Source: a virus. From it: DNA of 21,369 bases. The stretch's first letter is position 1, and each line of letters begins with the position of its first letter. The stretch covers positions 1-21,369 of IMG/VR virus record IMGVR_UViG_3300028837_000860; one strand, written 5' to 3'. Below are positions 5,994 to 17,108 of this stretch, in pieces. The notes under the pieces were generated by a model. It was not told the origin of the DNA. It saw nothing but the letters and a program-made list of their open reading frames with translations, and did not search any database. The translations under genes were made by a program, and so were the position numbers.

Positions 5994-6022
5994 TTGGGCT
6001 GATTAAGGCTCAGCCCTAAGCC
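5994..6022 (-). repeat. 29-bp perfect inverted repeat, left copy (portal leader)
   Basis: The minus strand here is identical over 29 bases to the plus strand at 13068-13096. It contains the hairpin GGGCTGA-(GCCTTAA)-TCAGCCC. It lies in the leader of the 61-aa gene and portal, downstream of the gene at 6026-6211. In each place the copy reads the same way as the probable transcript. Confidence 0.9.
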
Positions 6023-6025
6023 CAT

Positions 6026-6211
6026 CTAATCTTCTGCGTTCTCGTCGCTAGTCGATAGCGCAGCCTCATATTCCTCTTTGAGAAATTTGTAAGCCGTTTT
6101 GAAGTATTTAAATGCTTCTTTAAAACAAGCGCCTTCAGACCTACCCAACAGCCCCAAGGCTTGTCGTCCAGCTTCTAGCCTAGCGTTTAACCTAAGCGTT
6201 TCCATTTCCAT
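6026..6211 (-). CDS. hypothetical helical protein (61 aa)
   Basis: A 61-residue protein predicted to be almost entirely helical (METLRLNARLEAGRQALGLL, then KEAFKYFKTAYKFLKEEYEA), with an acidic tail. ATG at 6209-6211 has AAGGAGAG at an ideal distance. It could be a small coiled-coil or adaptor protein. It opens the leftward head operon, with the 29-bp repeat right after its stop. Family not recognised. Confidence 0.65.
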   Translation of the reverse strand: MEMETLRLNARLEAGRQALGLLGRSEGACFKEAFKYFKTAYKFLKEEYEAALSTSDENAED

Positions 6212-6263
6212 CGTTCTCTCCTTGTTTTAGGGTTTAGCGGAAAGTCTTGATTGAAAAACTTAT

Positions 6264-6500
6264 GTGCCAATTAACGCCCATTCTCCGGCGATCCCAACGG
6301 ACCCGAAGACTTTGCCAACCGACTTTATGTGGGAACTACAACGTCGCGGGAAGATCGCCGCACCAGGTTACAGGGCTGGTAGAGCCTGGGTTTACTATTC
6401 CCACAATAAAACGCTTTTTTCTCTTTTGCTCATTCGTGGTGGCGGTTGGCTACGAATACAACCCCTGCAACGTTACTCGCAGTCTCCGTATCAGATGTAG
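6264..6500 (+). CDS. possible small protein, uncertain (78 aa)
   Basis: An open frame on the plus strand. Residues about 18-45 (DFMWELQRRGKIAAPGYRAG then RAWVYY) recall the recognition part of winged-helix excisionase or MerR-like domains, where 'RRGKIxAP...GRxWxY' is common. The rest (LFSLLLIRGGG onward) does not look like protein. There is no good ribosome binding site before the ATG. It may be a decayed regulator or chance. The surrounding 6212-6622 stretch otherwise shows no gene; it holds a few short hairpins, such as GGCTAC at 6447 pairing with GTAGCC at 6496. Confidence 0.25.
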   Translation: MPINAHSPAIPTDPKTLPTDFMWELQRRGKIAAPGYRAGRAWVYYSHNKTLFSLLLIRGGGWLRIQPLQRYSQSPYQM

Positions 6501-6622
6501 CCGTTTTCACCATTCGGGCGCAACAACGCACTTAATAGGCCCGAAATTCTAGTCTGAAGTTTAATATCATTTCATCCTAAAAGCAAGCATTTTTAATGAT
6601 TACACAATATTTAAACCATGAA

Positions 6623-6704
6623 TGTAGGGGTGGAGGGACTCGAACCCCCTTGATGGTTAATCCGGGTTACAGCCGGACTCCTTGCCAGATCGGACTACCG
6701 CTAC
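6623..6704 (-). tRNA. tRNA-Tyr(GTA)-like, irregular acceptor stem
   Basis: On the minus strand: 5' GTAGCGG, U8-A9, D arm with GG in its loop (GATCTGGCAA), anticodon arm TCCGG-CTGTAAC-CCGGA giving anticodon GUA (Tyr), an 11-nt variable arm as expected for bacterial tRNA-Tyr, and T arm GGGGG-TTCGAGT-CCCTC. The acceptor strand CCCCTAC pairs with GTAGCGG apart from a C-C mismatch, but two extra bases (CA) separate it from the T stem. CCA is not encoded; the discriminator is A. It is a clear tRNA relative, but the acceptor faults leave open whether it is functional or carries an indel. Confidence 0.7.
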
Positions 6705-12739: not shown

Positions 12740-13330
12740 GTTCTTTGGCAGAGACAGGAGGTGGCTGGCAAGCAGTCGGCAAGAAGGTAATGACGGGTTA
12801 GCCACCGGATGCCCTTAAAGGCGGGAACCCATCTTGCGAAGGTTCACAGGCTAGAACATTTTCTCTGCTAAGTTCTTTGAATTAGGGAATGCGGCACATA
12901 ACCCGGCCTGAAGGCTAATGCCATCGGGCTAGGACGCGTGGTGGTTATAGGGCCGCTACCCTAAAGGCTTTCCTCGTTGAGCCGTAATCAATGAGGTGGC
13001 GGCGGGTGTGGGAGTTGTCCCGCCCTCCCGGCACTAGGTTGATCGCTAGTGTCGTTAGCTTAGAATAGGCTTAGGGCTGAGCCTTAATCAGCCCAATCTT
13101 TGAAATGGCGAGAGTGCGTAACCCGTGAGGGGCGCGGGCAAAGATGGGGATTTTTGATGGGTTCATGTTTCATCCATCTGCGTTTTGCAACTCTCGCCAT
13201 GCCCTTTGAATAAGGCGGGTTTTCCAGACGTGGGATAGGTTGCTAGCACTGAAAGTCCGCCAGAGCGGAGGGTCGGCAGGGCCTACTAAGCCCGACTACG
13301 GGTCAGGTTTGACCTATTGAGAAGGAGGAC
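12740..13330 (+). ncRNA. large multi-hairpin RNA candidate, about 590 nt
   Basis: No credible gene lies here, but nested complementary arms fill the block: GGGTT 12795/AACCC 12826; ATAACC 12898/GGTTAT 12943; TAGGG 12948/CCCTA 12959; CCTCGTTGA 12972/TCAATGAGG 12988; GGCGGG 13001/CCCGCC 13019; CGGCACTAG 13029/CTAGTGTCG 13046; GGGCTGA 13074/TCAGCCC 13088; an 11-bp arm ATGGCGAGAGT 13105/ACTCTCGCCAT 13190 enclosing more hairpins; CCGC 13257/GCGG 13265; GATAGGTT 13234/GACCTATT 13311. Three arms use G-U pairs that would be A-C mismatches on the other strand, so the plus strand is favoured. Size and phage context recall the giant ornate RNAs GOLLD and ROOL, but I cannot assign a family. Ends are approximate. 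Confidence 0.65.
13068..13096 (+). repeat. 29-bp perfect inverted repeat, right copy (inside the structured RNA)
   Basis: Same 29 bases as the minus strand at 5994-6022. Here it forms one hairpin of the structured RNA (7-bp stem GGGCTGA/TCAGCCC, loop GCCTTAA). Confidence 0.9.
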
Positions 13331-13339
13331 AACCCAGCA

Positions 13340-13987
13340 ATGTCGAGTAAAGGGAAAACTGGTTACTCCGTCTATAACGAGGATACAAAGAGAAGGACCA
13401 AGAAGAACCCAATGCCCGATTTGTACCCCCGTTTGCCTGACAAGAGATTTGACATTATCTACGCAGACCCCCCGTGGCACTACAACGGGAAGCTGCAGTT
13501 TGACAAGAGCAGCAAGAGTGCGGACAAAATAGACTTATCAAAGAATATCTTCATCAGTTCGGCAGCTTTCAAGTACCCCACGCTAAAGACTAGCCAAATG
13601 ATGAGTCTTCCGGTGCAGGACATTGCAAAAGATGATTGCCTATTATTTATGTGGGCTACTAACCCCCATATAGCTCAGGCAATACAACTCGGGGAAGCTT
13701 GGGGGTTTGAATACAAGACCGTAGCATTTGTGTGGGATAAGATGGCCCACAACCCAGGGCAATACACTCTTTCCAATTGCGAGCTGTGCTTGGCGTTCAA
13801 ACGTGGAAGAATACCTAAGCCTAGAGGTGCGCGCAATGTTCAGCAACTCATAAGAAGCCCGAGACGGGCGCATAGCATGAAACCAGATGAAATAAGGTAT
13901 GCAATCGAAAAGATGTTTCCAACGCAGGAACGCATAGAGCTATTTGCGAGGAGTGCTGTCAGAGGGTGGACAGAGTGGGGATTATAA
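13340..13987 (+). CDS. MT-A70 family adenine N6-methyltransferase (215 aa)
   Basis: Carries DIIYADPPWHYNG (residues 38-50) with the DPPW catalytic motif at 43-46, then LLFMWATNPHI, WGFEYKTVAFVWDK and a C-terminal FPTQERIELFARS, the order seen in MT-A70 phage methyltransferases. These transfer a methyl group from S-adenosylmethionine to adenine N6, usually in DNA; related eukaryotic enzymes act on RNA. A basic N-terminal 35 residues precede the domain. ATG at 13340-13342 follows AAGGAGG by 11 bases. It is the only gene after the structured RNA and is followed by a strong terminator. It probably protects phage DNA from host restriction. Confidence 0.9.
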   Translation: MSSKGKTGYSVYNEDTKRRTKKNPMPDLYPRLPDKRFDIIYADPPWHYNGKLQFDKSSKSADKIDLSKNIFISSAAFKYPTLKTSQMMSLPVQDIAKDDCLLFMWATNPHIAQAIQLGEAWGFEYKTVAFVWDKMAHNPGQYTLSNCELCLAFKRGRIPKPRGARNVQQLIRSPRRAHSMKPDEIRYAIEKMFPTQERIELFARSAVRGWTEWGL

Positions 13988-14101
13988 GTTATAAATAAGA
14001 ACCCGAACGACTTCAGCCTAGCAGCATCCTGATCTTGTTGTTGAAGTGGTCCAGCAAACCCGACTCTTTTGCTTTAACCCCTTAGCTTCGGCGAAGGGTG
14101 C

Positions 14102-14131
14102 GGGGCCGGAGAAATCCGGCCCCTGCTTTTT
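14102..14131 (+). terminator. intrinsic terminator after the MT-A70 gene
   Basis: GGGGCCGGA-GAAA-TCCGGCCCC, a perfect 9-bp stem with a GNRA-type loop, followed by TGCTTTTT. It lies 115 bases after the methyltransferase stop. A weaker CCCTT/AAGGG hairpin lies just before it. Confidence 0.9.
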
Positions 14132-14534
14132 AACTGATAATATAGCCCCATATTTGTGCAACCGCTGTCCAAACGCTGTAATTATATAAAAACAACGCAA
14201 AACCGGGTATATAACTTTCCCCCTCTCCCCCCCGACGAGAAAATAAAAACAAAGTGGTCTATTGTTCCCGAGAAAATGCCCGCACAAGAAAATATATAAG
14301 AAGAAATATCAAAAATAACCTTATTATGAGTGTCAACTGCATATATAAGACCGCGCCCCCCGCCGCCCGCGCCCGATTCCGCGCGATCCGTTGAAATTTT
14401 TGCCCAGGCTGCACCGACACAGGATGTATAACATCACTCCTTACTGCCAGGACCCCATTTAAGACCCTTGACACGCCCGCTACGGCACTTTCTGCCTGAA
14501 TTGGCACTAGGGCCCAAGTGCACACGCTACGCGC

Positions 14535-14651
14535 TACGCATAACGCAGACTGCGTAAATAATTGCGTATAATATATTATATGTAAACCTAATTCGCTAAA
14601 CGCTTGTTAATCCAATGCTTACGGTAATTGAGAGATAGTGAATAATGCGTA
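14535..14651 (+). repeat. iteron-like TGCGTA repeats
   Basis: TGCGTA at 14551, 14563 and 14646, and its complement TACGCA at 14535, with further ACGC units between. A TATAAT box (14567-14572) lies inside the cluster, followed by the palindrome ATAATATATTAT. Could be a protein-binding array at an origin or promoter. Confidence 0.45.
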
Positions 14652-14960
14652 AAATGCACTCAAAGCAGACTAAATATACATTTTCAGCCTGTTTTGTGCT
14701 ATTAAGCGCAATACAGCAGCGATACTAGGACATTCAAGTCTTAATATGTTTATAGGACTGTACTCAGCGAAACCATTTGTTTCCGTTTAGATATTGAGTA
14801 ATCGGGAGATGGTGACTATGTTAACCTATGGCGCTTAAGTTAACAAGCGTTGCCTTTTCTTGCGTCTGGAAATCTTTTTTCATAACGGTGGGTTTACATA
14901 ATGTTGGCGGATTGAAAGAAAGTTCTTGCACCTACTTGCTGGCGTGGCGAACTTGTCAAC

Positions 14961-15034
14961 GTGAATGCACTGCTAAAACCTACAGCTTGCCCTTGGCGTC
15001 GGATGCTACCCACTCTCAGTGACGGTGCATTCAC
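14961..15034 (+). promoter_or_regulatory. hairpin leader upstream of the amidoligase operon
   Basis: GTGAATGCAC (14961) and GTGCATTCAC (15025) pair perfectly around 54 bases that contain a smaller CACT-CTC-AGTG hairpin. It lies 109 bases before the amidoligase start, in the expected 5' leader, and may be a riboregulator, a protein site or a processed small RNA. No known riboswitch pattern is seen. Confidence 0.45.
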
Positions 15035-15142
15035 AATCCGGCGTCGAGGGCATTTCTGGATCCGCACCCCTTGGCAATGCCTCTTGTTAAGGCTTGCTGC
15101 AATAGGGTTTTTTATTCTCATTGCTACTTTAGGGAAATAGCT

Positions 15143-16333
15143 ATGCCACGAGACACACTAGGCCGCTTCTGCACCGTAACAGAGTGTATTAATTGTAGCG
15201 CAGAGATTGAAGGTGAATCTTTCACTTACGATGGCGACTCCTATTGTGAAGAGTGCTTTAACGAAAGATTTACAGCTTGTTTTAAATGTGGGAGAACTGC
15301 GGAGATAGACGGCGATTACATTTACTGCGGGGATGCTTATTGTGAGGAATGCTTTTTCGATAAATTTATACAATGCCACCATTGTGGGGGCACAGTCCCG
15401 GAGAGTGACAGTCTCTATTCAGACCTTGCATGTGAATACTACTGCTCTAATTGTTACACCGAGTGCTTTACCATCTGCGAGGGCTGCGGTGAAGAGTGCT
15501 ACAGTGATGATATGACCTACAGCGAGGGTCAAAGCGGCTACTACTGTGAAGAGTGCTTTACCGATGATTATATCAAGCCCTGGGATTACAGGCCGGAGTT
15601 TAAACTACACGGTGAGGGGCCGCTATATTTTGGCTTTGAATTGGAAATTGAAAATAGGAAGAATGATTGCGAGAATAAGGGAATTGCCGAAGAAATCACT
15701 AATAGCGGACTGCCTCTATATTGCAAGGCGGACGGATCGTTAGACGACGGCTTTGAAATAGTCTCATATCCCTTTGACTGGGAATACTATAAAAATCATT
15801 TAAAAAAGCAACTTGGGGAAGTCTTTAAACTACGGGAAAGGGGCTTCCGCTCTTACGATACCACAAGCTGCGGGATTCATATTCACCTATCAAAAGATGC
15901 CTTTACCAGTTATCATCTATACAAGTTCCTTCGCTTCATTTACGACAACCCGACGTTAATTCACACCATTTCCCAGCGAAAGGGAGAGCACCTTGAGGAA
16001 TGGGCTAACGTAACGCCAGATAAGCCCAGCGAAATGCCGGAGGGATACCAGAAAAAGATCCTTGGCATGGCGAAGGACAAGCGAGGCAATGTCCACCGAT
16101 ATGTAGCTGTCAACCTACAAAACGATGCGTCCATTGAGGTTAGAATATTCAGAGGCACTTTGGTGGCGGAATCGTTTAATAAAAATCTTGAGTTTTGCCT
16201 TGCTGCATTTGAATTTACCTTGTCTGAAAGTGCAGAGCAGCTTTTGGACAGTCGCTTTGTTAAGTATGTGCAAACCAACCAGGAAAGCTATAAAAACTTA
16301 TATGCTTTCCTGGAACGAAAGGAACTAATCTAG
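15143..16333 (+). CDS. four LIM-like zinc fingers fused to an amidoligase (396 aa)
   Basis: Residues 1-140 hold four CxxC...CxxC modules (15/18-35/38, 46/49-67/70, 78/81-101/104, 112/115-135/138), each ending 'YCEECF', like LIM zinc fingers. Residues 160-350 match the Amidoligase_2 type (glutamine-synthetase-fold carboxylate-amine ligase): YFGFELEIE (162-170, metal-binding Glu), KADGSLDDGFEIVS (195-208), CGIHIHLS (243-250), HRYVAVNL (318-325) and SIEVRIFRGTL (330-340). Such enzymes use ATP to join an amine to a carboxylate on small molecules or peptides. Start ATG 15143 (after AGGG) is preferred to the upstream ATG 15071, whose extra residues look poor. It is coupled to the next gene. The zinc part probably selects a protein target; that is inference. 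Confidence 0.85.
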   Translation: MPRDTLGRFCTVTECINCSAEIEGESFTYDGDSYCEECFNERFTACFKCGRTAEIDGDYIYCGDAYCEECFFDKFIQCHHCGGTVPESDSLYSDLACEYYCSNCYTECFTICEGCGEECYSDDMTYSEGQSGYYCEECFTDDYIKPWDYRPEFKLHGEGPLYFGFELEIENRKNDCENKGIAEEITNSGLPLYCKADGSLDDGFEIVSYPFDWEYYKNHLKKQLGEVFKLRERGFRSYDTTSCGIHIHLSKDAFTSYHLYKFLRFIYDNPTLIHTISQRKGEHLEEWANVTPDKPSEMPEGYQKKILGMAKDKRGNVHRYVAVNLQNDASIEVRIFRGTLVAESFNKNLEFCLAAFEFTLSESAEQLLDSRFVKYVQTNQESYKNLYAFLERKELI

Positions 16334-16334
16334 A

Positions 16335-17108
16335 ATGTGCATTGCAATCTATAAACCGGTGGATCAAACACTAACTAAACGCACCTTGCAAACCTGCTGG
16401 ACCAATAACCCAGACGGTGCGGGATTTATGTATGTTGAGGGGGATAAAATAATAATTATTAAAGAGTTAAGCACCTTTAAGGTGTTCTGGGCTAAGTACC
16501 AGCTAGCAATAAAGGGGCCAGCCAAAGGTCGAGAAGTTGTCTTGCACTTTAGAGTTGCTACAAGCGGCAAAATTAACTTTGAAAATTGCCACCCTCATGT
16601 AGTAAACGACAAAATGGCATTCTGCCACAATGGTATAATAAATTACAAGATGGCACCCGACAGTGTTGTATCGGACACAATGATATTTAACGATGCTATT
16701 CTCAAGGGATTGCCAGGCGGCTTTCTCGACAATCCCGCAACCATTATATTGCTAGAGGACTATATTGCTTACTCTAAAATGGTTTTCTTGTCACTTCCTG
16801 AGCAAGTTACAATCCTTAACGAAAAGAAAGGCGAATGGACTAAAGGGATTTGGTTTTCTAACGATGGATATAAACCTATACCCCAAAAGATTTTCAGGCC
16901 CACAAAAGTACAAAGCGGCATATCGAACTGGGCAGGTGCCGTAGATCATGCAGAGGAAGTACTAATTCACTCCCGGTGTATAGAGTGCGGGAAAGAATTG
17001 GACTTGAAGGACGACGACCAATATGAGATTGGCCTTTGCCCTTCGTGTTTGTTTACGGAGGGATACTATTCCCAACAGGACTGGGATAGCCATTTCTTAG
17101 CAAAGTAG
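16335..17108 (+). CDS. class II glutamine amidotransferase with zinc ribbon (257 aa)
   Basis: Begins MCIAIY: Cys2 becomes the N-terminal nucleophile of an Ntn-type amidotransferase after Met removal. Other family signatures follow: NPDGAGF (25-31), LHFRVATSG (70-78), CHPH (85-88) and FCHNGII (96-102), the glutamine-binding and oxyanion elements. Residues 215-238 add a C-x2-C...C-x2-C zinc ribbon. The enzyme would release ammonia from glutamine for the amidoligase, whose stop lies one base before this ATG. Amidoligase and class II amidotransferase neighbours are a known pairing in comparative genomics of these families (Iyer and colleagues), where they are predicted to modify peptides or proteins. 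The substrate is unknown here. Confidence 0.85.
   Translation: MCIAIYKPVDQTLTKRTLQTCWTNNPDGAGFMYVEGDKIIIIKELSTFKVFWAKYQLAIKGPAKGREVVLHFRVATSGKINFENCHPHVVNDKMAFCHNGIINYKMAPDSVVSDTMIFNDAILKGLPGGFLDNPATIILLEDYIAYSKMVFLSLPEQVTILNEKKGEWTKGIWFSNDGYKPIPQKIFRPTKVQSGISNWAGAVDHAEEVLIHSRCIECGKELDLKDDDQYEIGLCPSCLFTEGYYSQQDWDSHFLAK

Follow-up and report, generated by a model that had tools for sequence, protein, structure and literature searches.

The window, by which we mean the whole 21,369-nt stretch analysed here, contains a gene-free block at 12740–13330 that is, judged by comparison of related sequences, a structured plus-strand RNA composed of conserved, separately folding phage elements. Two of these elements belong to a family of small H-type pseudoknots with more than 50 distinct copies in IMG/VR, a structurally familiar kind of RNA family that, within the libraries searched, has no earlier description.

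The block is located at a divergent junction, with structural genes running leftward on the minus strand and an MT-A70 gene running rightward on the plus strand. A sequence-only reading had called it devoid of genes, and no ORF of at least 50 aa lies wholly within 12790–13286 on either strand, the longest stop-free stretch in the block being 52 codons. The same reading placed the RNA directly upstream of an MT-A70 methyltransferase, which is indeed encoded at 13340–13987 and also matches the PHROG family phrog_359 (DNA methyltransferase, E 2.6e-66). The parts of the block and related features are, in window coordinates:

12740–12871, plus strand: window-specific leading part, with a 10-nt outer helix (12745–12754/12862–12871) and inverted repeats I4, I6 and I8
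12889–12957, plus strand: element C, a long bulged hairpin of ~69 nt
12966–12996, plus strand: PK_B, H-type pseudoknot of the GUAA-loop class; stem 1 GGC/GCC, stem 2 CCUCGUUGA/UCAAUGAGG
12997–13066, plus strand: two window-specific hairpins, e.g. CGGCACTAG/CTAGTGTCG at 13029–13054; inverted repeat I7
13068–13094, plus strand: PK_A, H-type pseudoknot of the UUAA-loop class; stem 1 GGC/GCC, stem 2 GGGCUGA/UCAGCCC
13102–13203, plus strand: element D, with an 11-bp outer helix (13105–13115/13190–13200), two inner helices and strongly conserved loops
13205–13330, plus strand: window-specific tail reaching the MT-A70 ribosome-binding site
13340–13987, plus strand: gene following the array, for an adenine methyltransferase of the MT-A70 family (PF05063, E 2.8e-22)
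14102–14131, plus strand: intrinsic-terminator-like hairpin of 9 pairs (8 G-C) with a T-rich tail
5996–6022, minus strand: third PK_A copy, 3 nt behind the stop of a 61-aa ORF (6026–6211, minus strand), upstream of the portal gene

The third copy emerged from a self-search of the window, in which 32 nt (13065–13096) recur at 5994–6025 on the minus strand. The terminator-like hairpin could end a transcript of the array and MT-A70 but is only suggestive, about two such sites being expected by chance in the region. It falls in a stretch of ~1.1 kb behind MT-A70 (13988–15070) that has no convincing gene and also holds an AT-rich palindrome (14562–14585). Beyond it, 15071–17108 on the plus strand encodes an amidoligase-like protein with four repeated CxxC-type units in its N-terminal half, adjoining a class-II glutamine amidotransferase-like gene. 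On the minus strand, ~400 nt without a clear gene (6212–6622) separate a tRNA-Tyr (6623–6704, minus strand) from the 61-aa ORF and are not explained by the models built for the pseudoknots (R1), element D (R2) and element C (R3).

At least ten complementary arms had been proposed for the block, and ten inverted-repeat pairs were confirmed, including the 11-bp outer helix of element D; both 9-nt arms proposed as stems are present and are 89% Watson–Crick complementary, each containing a single wobble or mismatch. For the plus strand (601 nt) the fold has z −3.8, and none of 200 dinucleotide shuffles folds as well. Measured in 150-nt steps, the mean z is −1.9 for the plus strand of the block, −0.9 for its minus strand and −0.34 for the whole window, while the minus strand taken whole has a fold score similar to that of the plus strand. 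Some coding blocks of the window are as structured as the gene-free block, so folding energy alone is not decisive. Within the block, z reaches −3.3 at 12995–13066 and −3.0 for element D, and both ends fold no better than shuffles (12740–12870, z −1.0, or −0.98 to 12871; 13205–13330, z −0.3). No relative was found for either end; the structure of the leading part is weakly supported, and a structured RNA in the tail is unsupported. For 12889–13203, comparison with related sequences settles the reality of a structured RNA.

For C and D this comparison comes from a single relative. An IMG/VR scan with the repeated pseudoknot core retrieved one other phage contig, L029, that holds four elements of the block at 77–79% identity, or 94–100% for the pseudoknots, which agrees with the earlier claim of a plus-strand RNA in a phage setting. 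No protein is shared by the window and L029 at tblastn E 0.01. Element C is 77% identical to its L029 counterpart and the PK_A-D stretch 79%; PK_B (model R1, 43.9 bits) has a 94% identical L029 copy directly behind a tRNA-Met, and PK_A (32.2 bits) has two identical copies there. Compensatory changes had been suggested as a check on the arms, and RNAalifold finds four compensatory pairs, three in C and one in D, the latter with three one-sided changes, none broken in either element. Pair conservation drawn from two sequences is supportive, not conclusive. Patterns for C and D matched only L029 in IMG/VR, and models R3 and R2 match only the window and L029 copies, which makes each of C and D a candidate new RNA known from two members. 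The order of elements is C, PK_B, hairpins, PK_A, D in the window, and PK_A, tRNA-Met, PK_B, PK_A, D, C, terminator-like hairpin in L029. The circular order of C, B, A and D is thus kept in these two examples (C-B-A-D and B-A-D-C); the spacers, the hairpins at 12997–13066 and both block ends are absent from L029.

Other searches returned little. The window has no Rfam match at gathering score and two unrelated weak matches, scoring far under that threshold, at E up to 10, and the block is, as the sequence-only reading had supposed, unmatched to GOLLD, ROOL or any other Rfam family. ARAGORN and Rfam at default settings detect no tRNA or tmRNA in the block; degenerate tRNAs were dropped as candidates, lowered thresholds yielding junk predictions only, and so was a repeated CUUUGA at element boundaries, of which the plus strand of the window has 17 occurrences. 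No match came from blastn searches of phage and plasmid collections, and terminase and amidoligase searches gave no useful relatives. Among 25 loci with MT-A70 relatives, nothing similar lies upstream of the six closest (64–73% identity); since, in addition, the L029 elements lie beside other genes, the link to MT-A70 looks incidental.

PK_A and PK_B share the arrangement GGCUU-stem-GCC(G/U)UAA-stem', and the architecture of the family is an H-type pseudoknot, GGC-UU-[stem]-GCC-KUAA-[stem'], with a stem 1 of 3 bp and a loop of 4 nt. The pattern GGCTTN{2,10}TGAGCCKTAATCA has three matches in the window and none in 100 shuffles, and it matched 73 IMG/VR contigs. At more than 60 pattern sites stem 2 is extended by at least four further pairs. 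Outward pairs 5 and 6, which played no part in selecting copies, are paired in 38 of 46 and 30 of 41 copies, where 21 and 14.5 are expected. In a 20-sequence alignment, 98.3% of stem 2 cells pair, with 51 double-sided changes, and the covariation score of 0.566 is reached by none of 500 shuffles and compares with at most 0.206 in slid controls. Among the matches listed, the outer pair of stem 1 is G-C in 54, A-T in two, C-G in two (close relatives) and A-C in one where a real stem 2 is present; without stem 2 all 16 combinations occur. The predicted fold is an H-type pseudoknot of two interleaved helices, stem 2 being strongly supported by covariation and stem 1 by a few compensatory swaps. 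The second knot of contig L091 has the middle pair of stem 1 swapped (GCC/GGC), and a knot in contig G007 combines an unchanged GGC/GCC with another stem 2 and a UUUGA loop; the family therefore extends beyond the search pattern. The two L091 knots (1965–1995 and 2969–2999) flank the same fibre-like gene, one before the ribosome-binding site of that gene, with the swapped stem 1, and one behind its stop codon. In L040 and L082 a degenerate knot has, ~20 nt behind it, another stretch resembling TTGAG(C/-)CTTAATCA that may be a tandem copy. Scanning 19 loci against Rfam at E up to 1 gave no match that overlaps the knot; a skipping-rope RNA (RF02924, 40.6 bits) at L064:1239–1332, minus strand, lies ~400 nt upstream of one copy. 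No description of the pseudoknot was found in the literature searched, whose scope stopped short of subscription journals.

The family is nearly absent from cellular genomes. Among 84,980 of them the tight pattern has no match and a second pattern three; the extended stem 2 occurs only in the Brevibacillus match, the one convincing cellular copy, whose surroundings read the same as IMG/VR locus L080. The knot is also missing from six cultured phages whose capsid genes are related.

The placement of the knots is recurrent. Counting open frames of at least 90 codons, the gap from stop codon to knot is 4–9 nt in 20 of 45 cases (median 8–9 nt, with a cluster at 6–8 nt). By PHROGs, upstream genes encode major head proteins (best matches phrog_14242, 212, 1650, 11589 and 1357), and further upstream genes, judged from sequence, encode fibre-like virion proteins of one loose family; in L056 the upstream gene encodes a TROVE/Ro-like protein. 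Other knots precede tRNAs, ending 3–8 nt from the tRNA 5' end. This holds for 10 of 18 GUAA-loop copies and 2 of 40 UUAA-loop copies, a split to be read as a trend and not a tested probability, since the sequences are related. In ~23 cases, in compact phage genomes, the next ribosome-binding-like site lies 1–13 nt from the knot. At least five T in the 8 nt behind the stem are found in 12 of 58 copies. PK_A and PK_B within the block are not behind virion genes.

Two groups of contigs show further associations. In L042, L056 and L089 (e.g. L056:6605–8062, minus strand) a phage gene for a TROVE/Ro60-like RNA-binding protein is directly followed by a pseudoknot and a large tRNA array. In L041, L050, L060, L061, L090 and L103 the tRNA directly behind the knot has the anticodon CTA and is called tRNA-Pyl by ARAGORN, though it is probably a UAG suppressor in recoded phages; a conserved protein of 113–126 aa and unknown function precedes it.

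Several other explanations bear on these data. The sequence-only reading saw in the block a candidate large ornate RNA recalling GOLLD and ROOL, in which case the window and L029 copies would be circular permutations with a tRNA in the linker. The kept circular order and the z of the whole 601 nt agree with this; GOLLD, too, is located near tRNA islands, and its linker can contain tRNAs (PMC12286853). The block resembles both families in being a phage non-coding RNA of several hundred nucleotides with pseudoknots and tRNA genes nearby or, in L029, inside. It differs in that Rfam gives no match to them even at E 10, the order of elements differs between the window and L029, though two examples would also fit a circular permutation, and the shared part amounts to ~315 nt of small elements instead of one elaborate conserved architecture. 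Moreover, PK_A occurs twice in L029 and also alone elsewhere in the window, the knot stands free in dozens of phages, a tRNA lies between elements, and no conserved pairing between elements was found in comparing the window with L029. Duplicated and free-standing knots, unshared spacers and ends without comparative or energetic support make a modular array the likelier arrangement, and a single RNA is unlikely. Chance structure in GC-rich intergenic DNA would fit the similar fold scores of coding blocks, but is already refuted for 12889–13203 by the pattern matches against shuffles, by stem 2 covariation and by elements common to a phage with no shared protein; as an account of the block it has next to no probability, its remaining scope being the two ends.

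What the pseudoknots do is a separate question. They could belong to the leader of the downstream gene and control its translation, perhaps by binding a protein as an operator does, as many end close to a ribosome-binding-like site and a precedent exists: the T4/T2 gene 32 mRNA has a pseudoknot in its leader, 67 nt upstream of gene 32, that binds gp32 (PMC3014915). Both are H-type, of ~30 nt and in phage mRNA. Compared with the literature description of the gene 32 knot, however, the family has 3 bp in stem 1 and KUAA as a 4-nt loop, accompanies unrelated genes and lies either shortly after a stop codon or ahead of a tRNA. At least 10 copies are followed next by a tRNA, an untranslated RNA, and downstream genes vary while the upstream gene class and the stop-codon distance recur, leaving this role improbable. 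An action on transcription (termination, pausing or antitermination, for example shielding untranslated tRNA or RNA arrays from Rho) is likewise doubtful. Intrinsic terminators behind phage major capsid genes occupy the same spot: five cultured crAss-like phages have a stem-loop there, in most cases with a T run behind it, Bacillus phage Page has an annotated terminator, and the arrays of the window and L029 are untranslated. The family, by contrast, is a pseudoknot with a conserved loop and not a simple hairpin; most copies lack a T run, which makes intrinsic termination unlikely, and same-strand genes or tRNAs follow the knot directly, which speaks against full termination. Stop-codon readthrough or frameshifting into extended virion proteins would suit the 6–8 nt gaps, a spacing resembling that of known recoding pseudoknots. 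Yet in 41 of 45 cases the extended frame ends within the knot or ahead of it, the other four gain at most 18 codons, and tRNA-adjacent knots have no frame to reach; a recoding signal is accordingly very improbable.

The explanation we tentatively prefer, while granting it somewhat less than even odds, is that the block represents a stable-RNA cassette of the phage, in which phage-specific pseudoknots mark the boundaries of RNA units. The array would consist of separately folding plus-strand elements, C, PK_B, PK_A and D, with window-specific hairpins, all within the MT-A70 leader; the terminator-like hairpin at 14102 may close it. Each pseudoknot would serve as a compact end guard. Placed 6–8 nt behind a stop codon, it would sit just outside the footprint of the terminating ribosome and could stay folded on a heavily translated mRNA. 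Once RNase P at the next tRNA, or another nuclease, has cleaved the RNA downstream, the knot would block exonucleases advancing 3'-to-5' and so preserve the message or small RNA upstream of it. C and D would be small stable RNAs, possibly with targets of their own, freed between pseudoknot guards. Position and compact fold are the pointers to the putative exonuclease-blocking role. Most large contigs have one knot copy, which is odd for a general end guard, and an effect on the downstream gene stays compatible with the nearby ribosome-binding site in compact genomes.

Viral exonuclease-resistant RNAs stop the 5'-to-3' exonuclease Xrn1 and belong to eukaryotic RNA viruses. The likeness lies in a compact fold with a pseudoknot that would keep an RNA end intact by stopping an exonuclease; the difference is that here a 3'-to-5' stop in phage RNA is proposed, with no claim of homology. 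T4 has small stable RNAs within its tRNA cluster, and by description these resemble the elements considered here as phage non-coding RNAs interspersed with tRNA genes, whereas the definition of C and D comes from their folding and a single relative.

It is possible, and we put it more cautiously than the cassette itself, that stable-RNA cassettes are exchanged between phages sharing no genes and that the phage-specific knot is a general boundary or end guard for capsid mRNAs, tRNA arrays and small RNAs such as C and D, a phage counterpart of exonuclease-resistant RNAs. Conservation of RNA elements between the window and L029 without shared proteins implies that RNA parts move or persist independently of genes. 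A small covarying pseudoknot, absent from Rfam and located with precision after coat-protein genes and ahead of tRNAs across many phages that are unrelated, is a well-defined element, simple to test, with which to ask how late mRNAs and tRNA arrays of phages stay intact during mRNA degradation.
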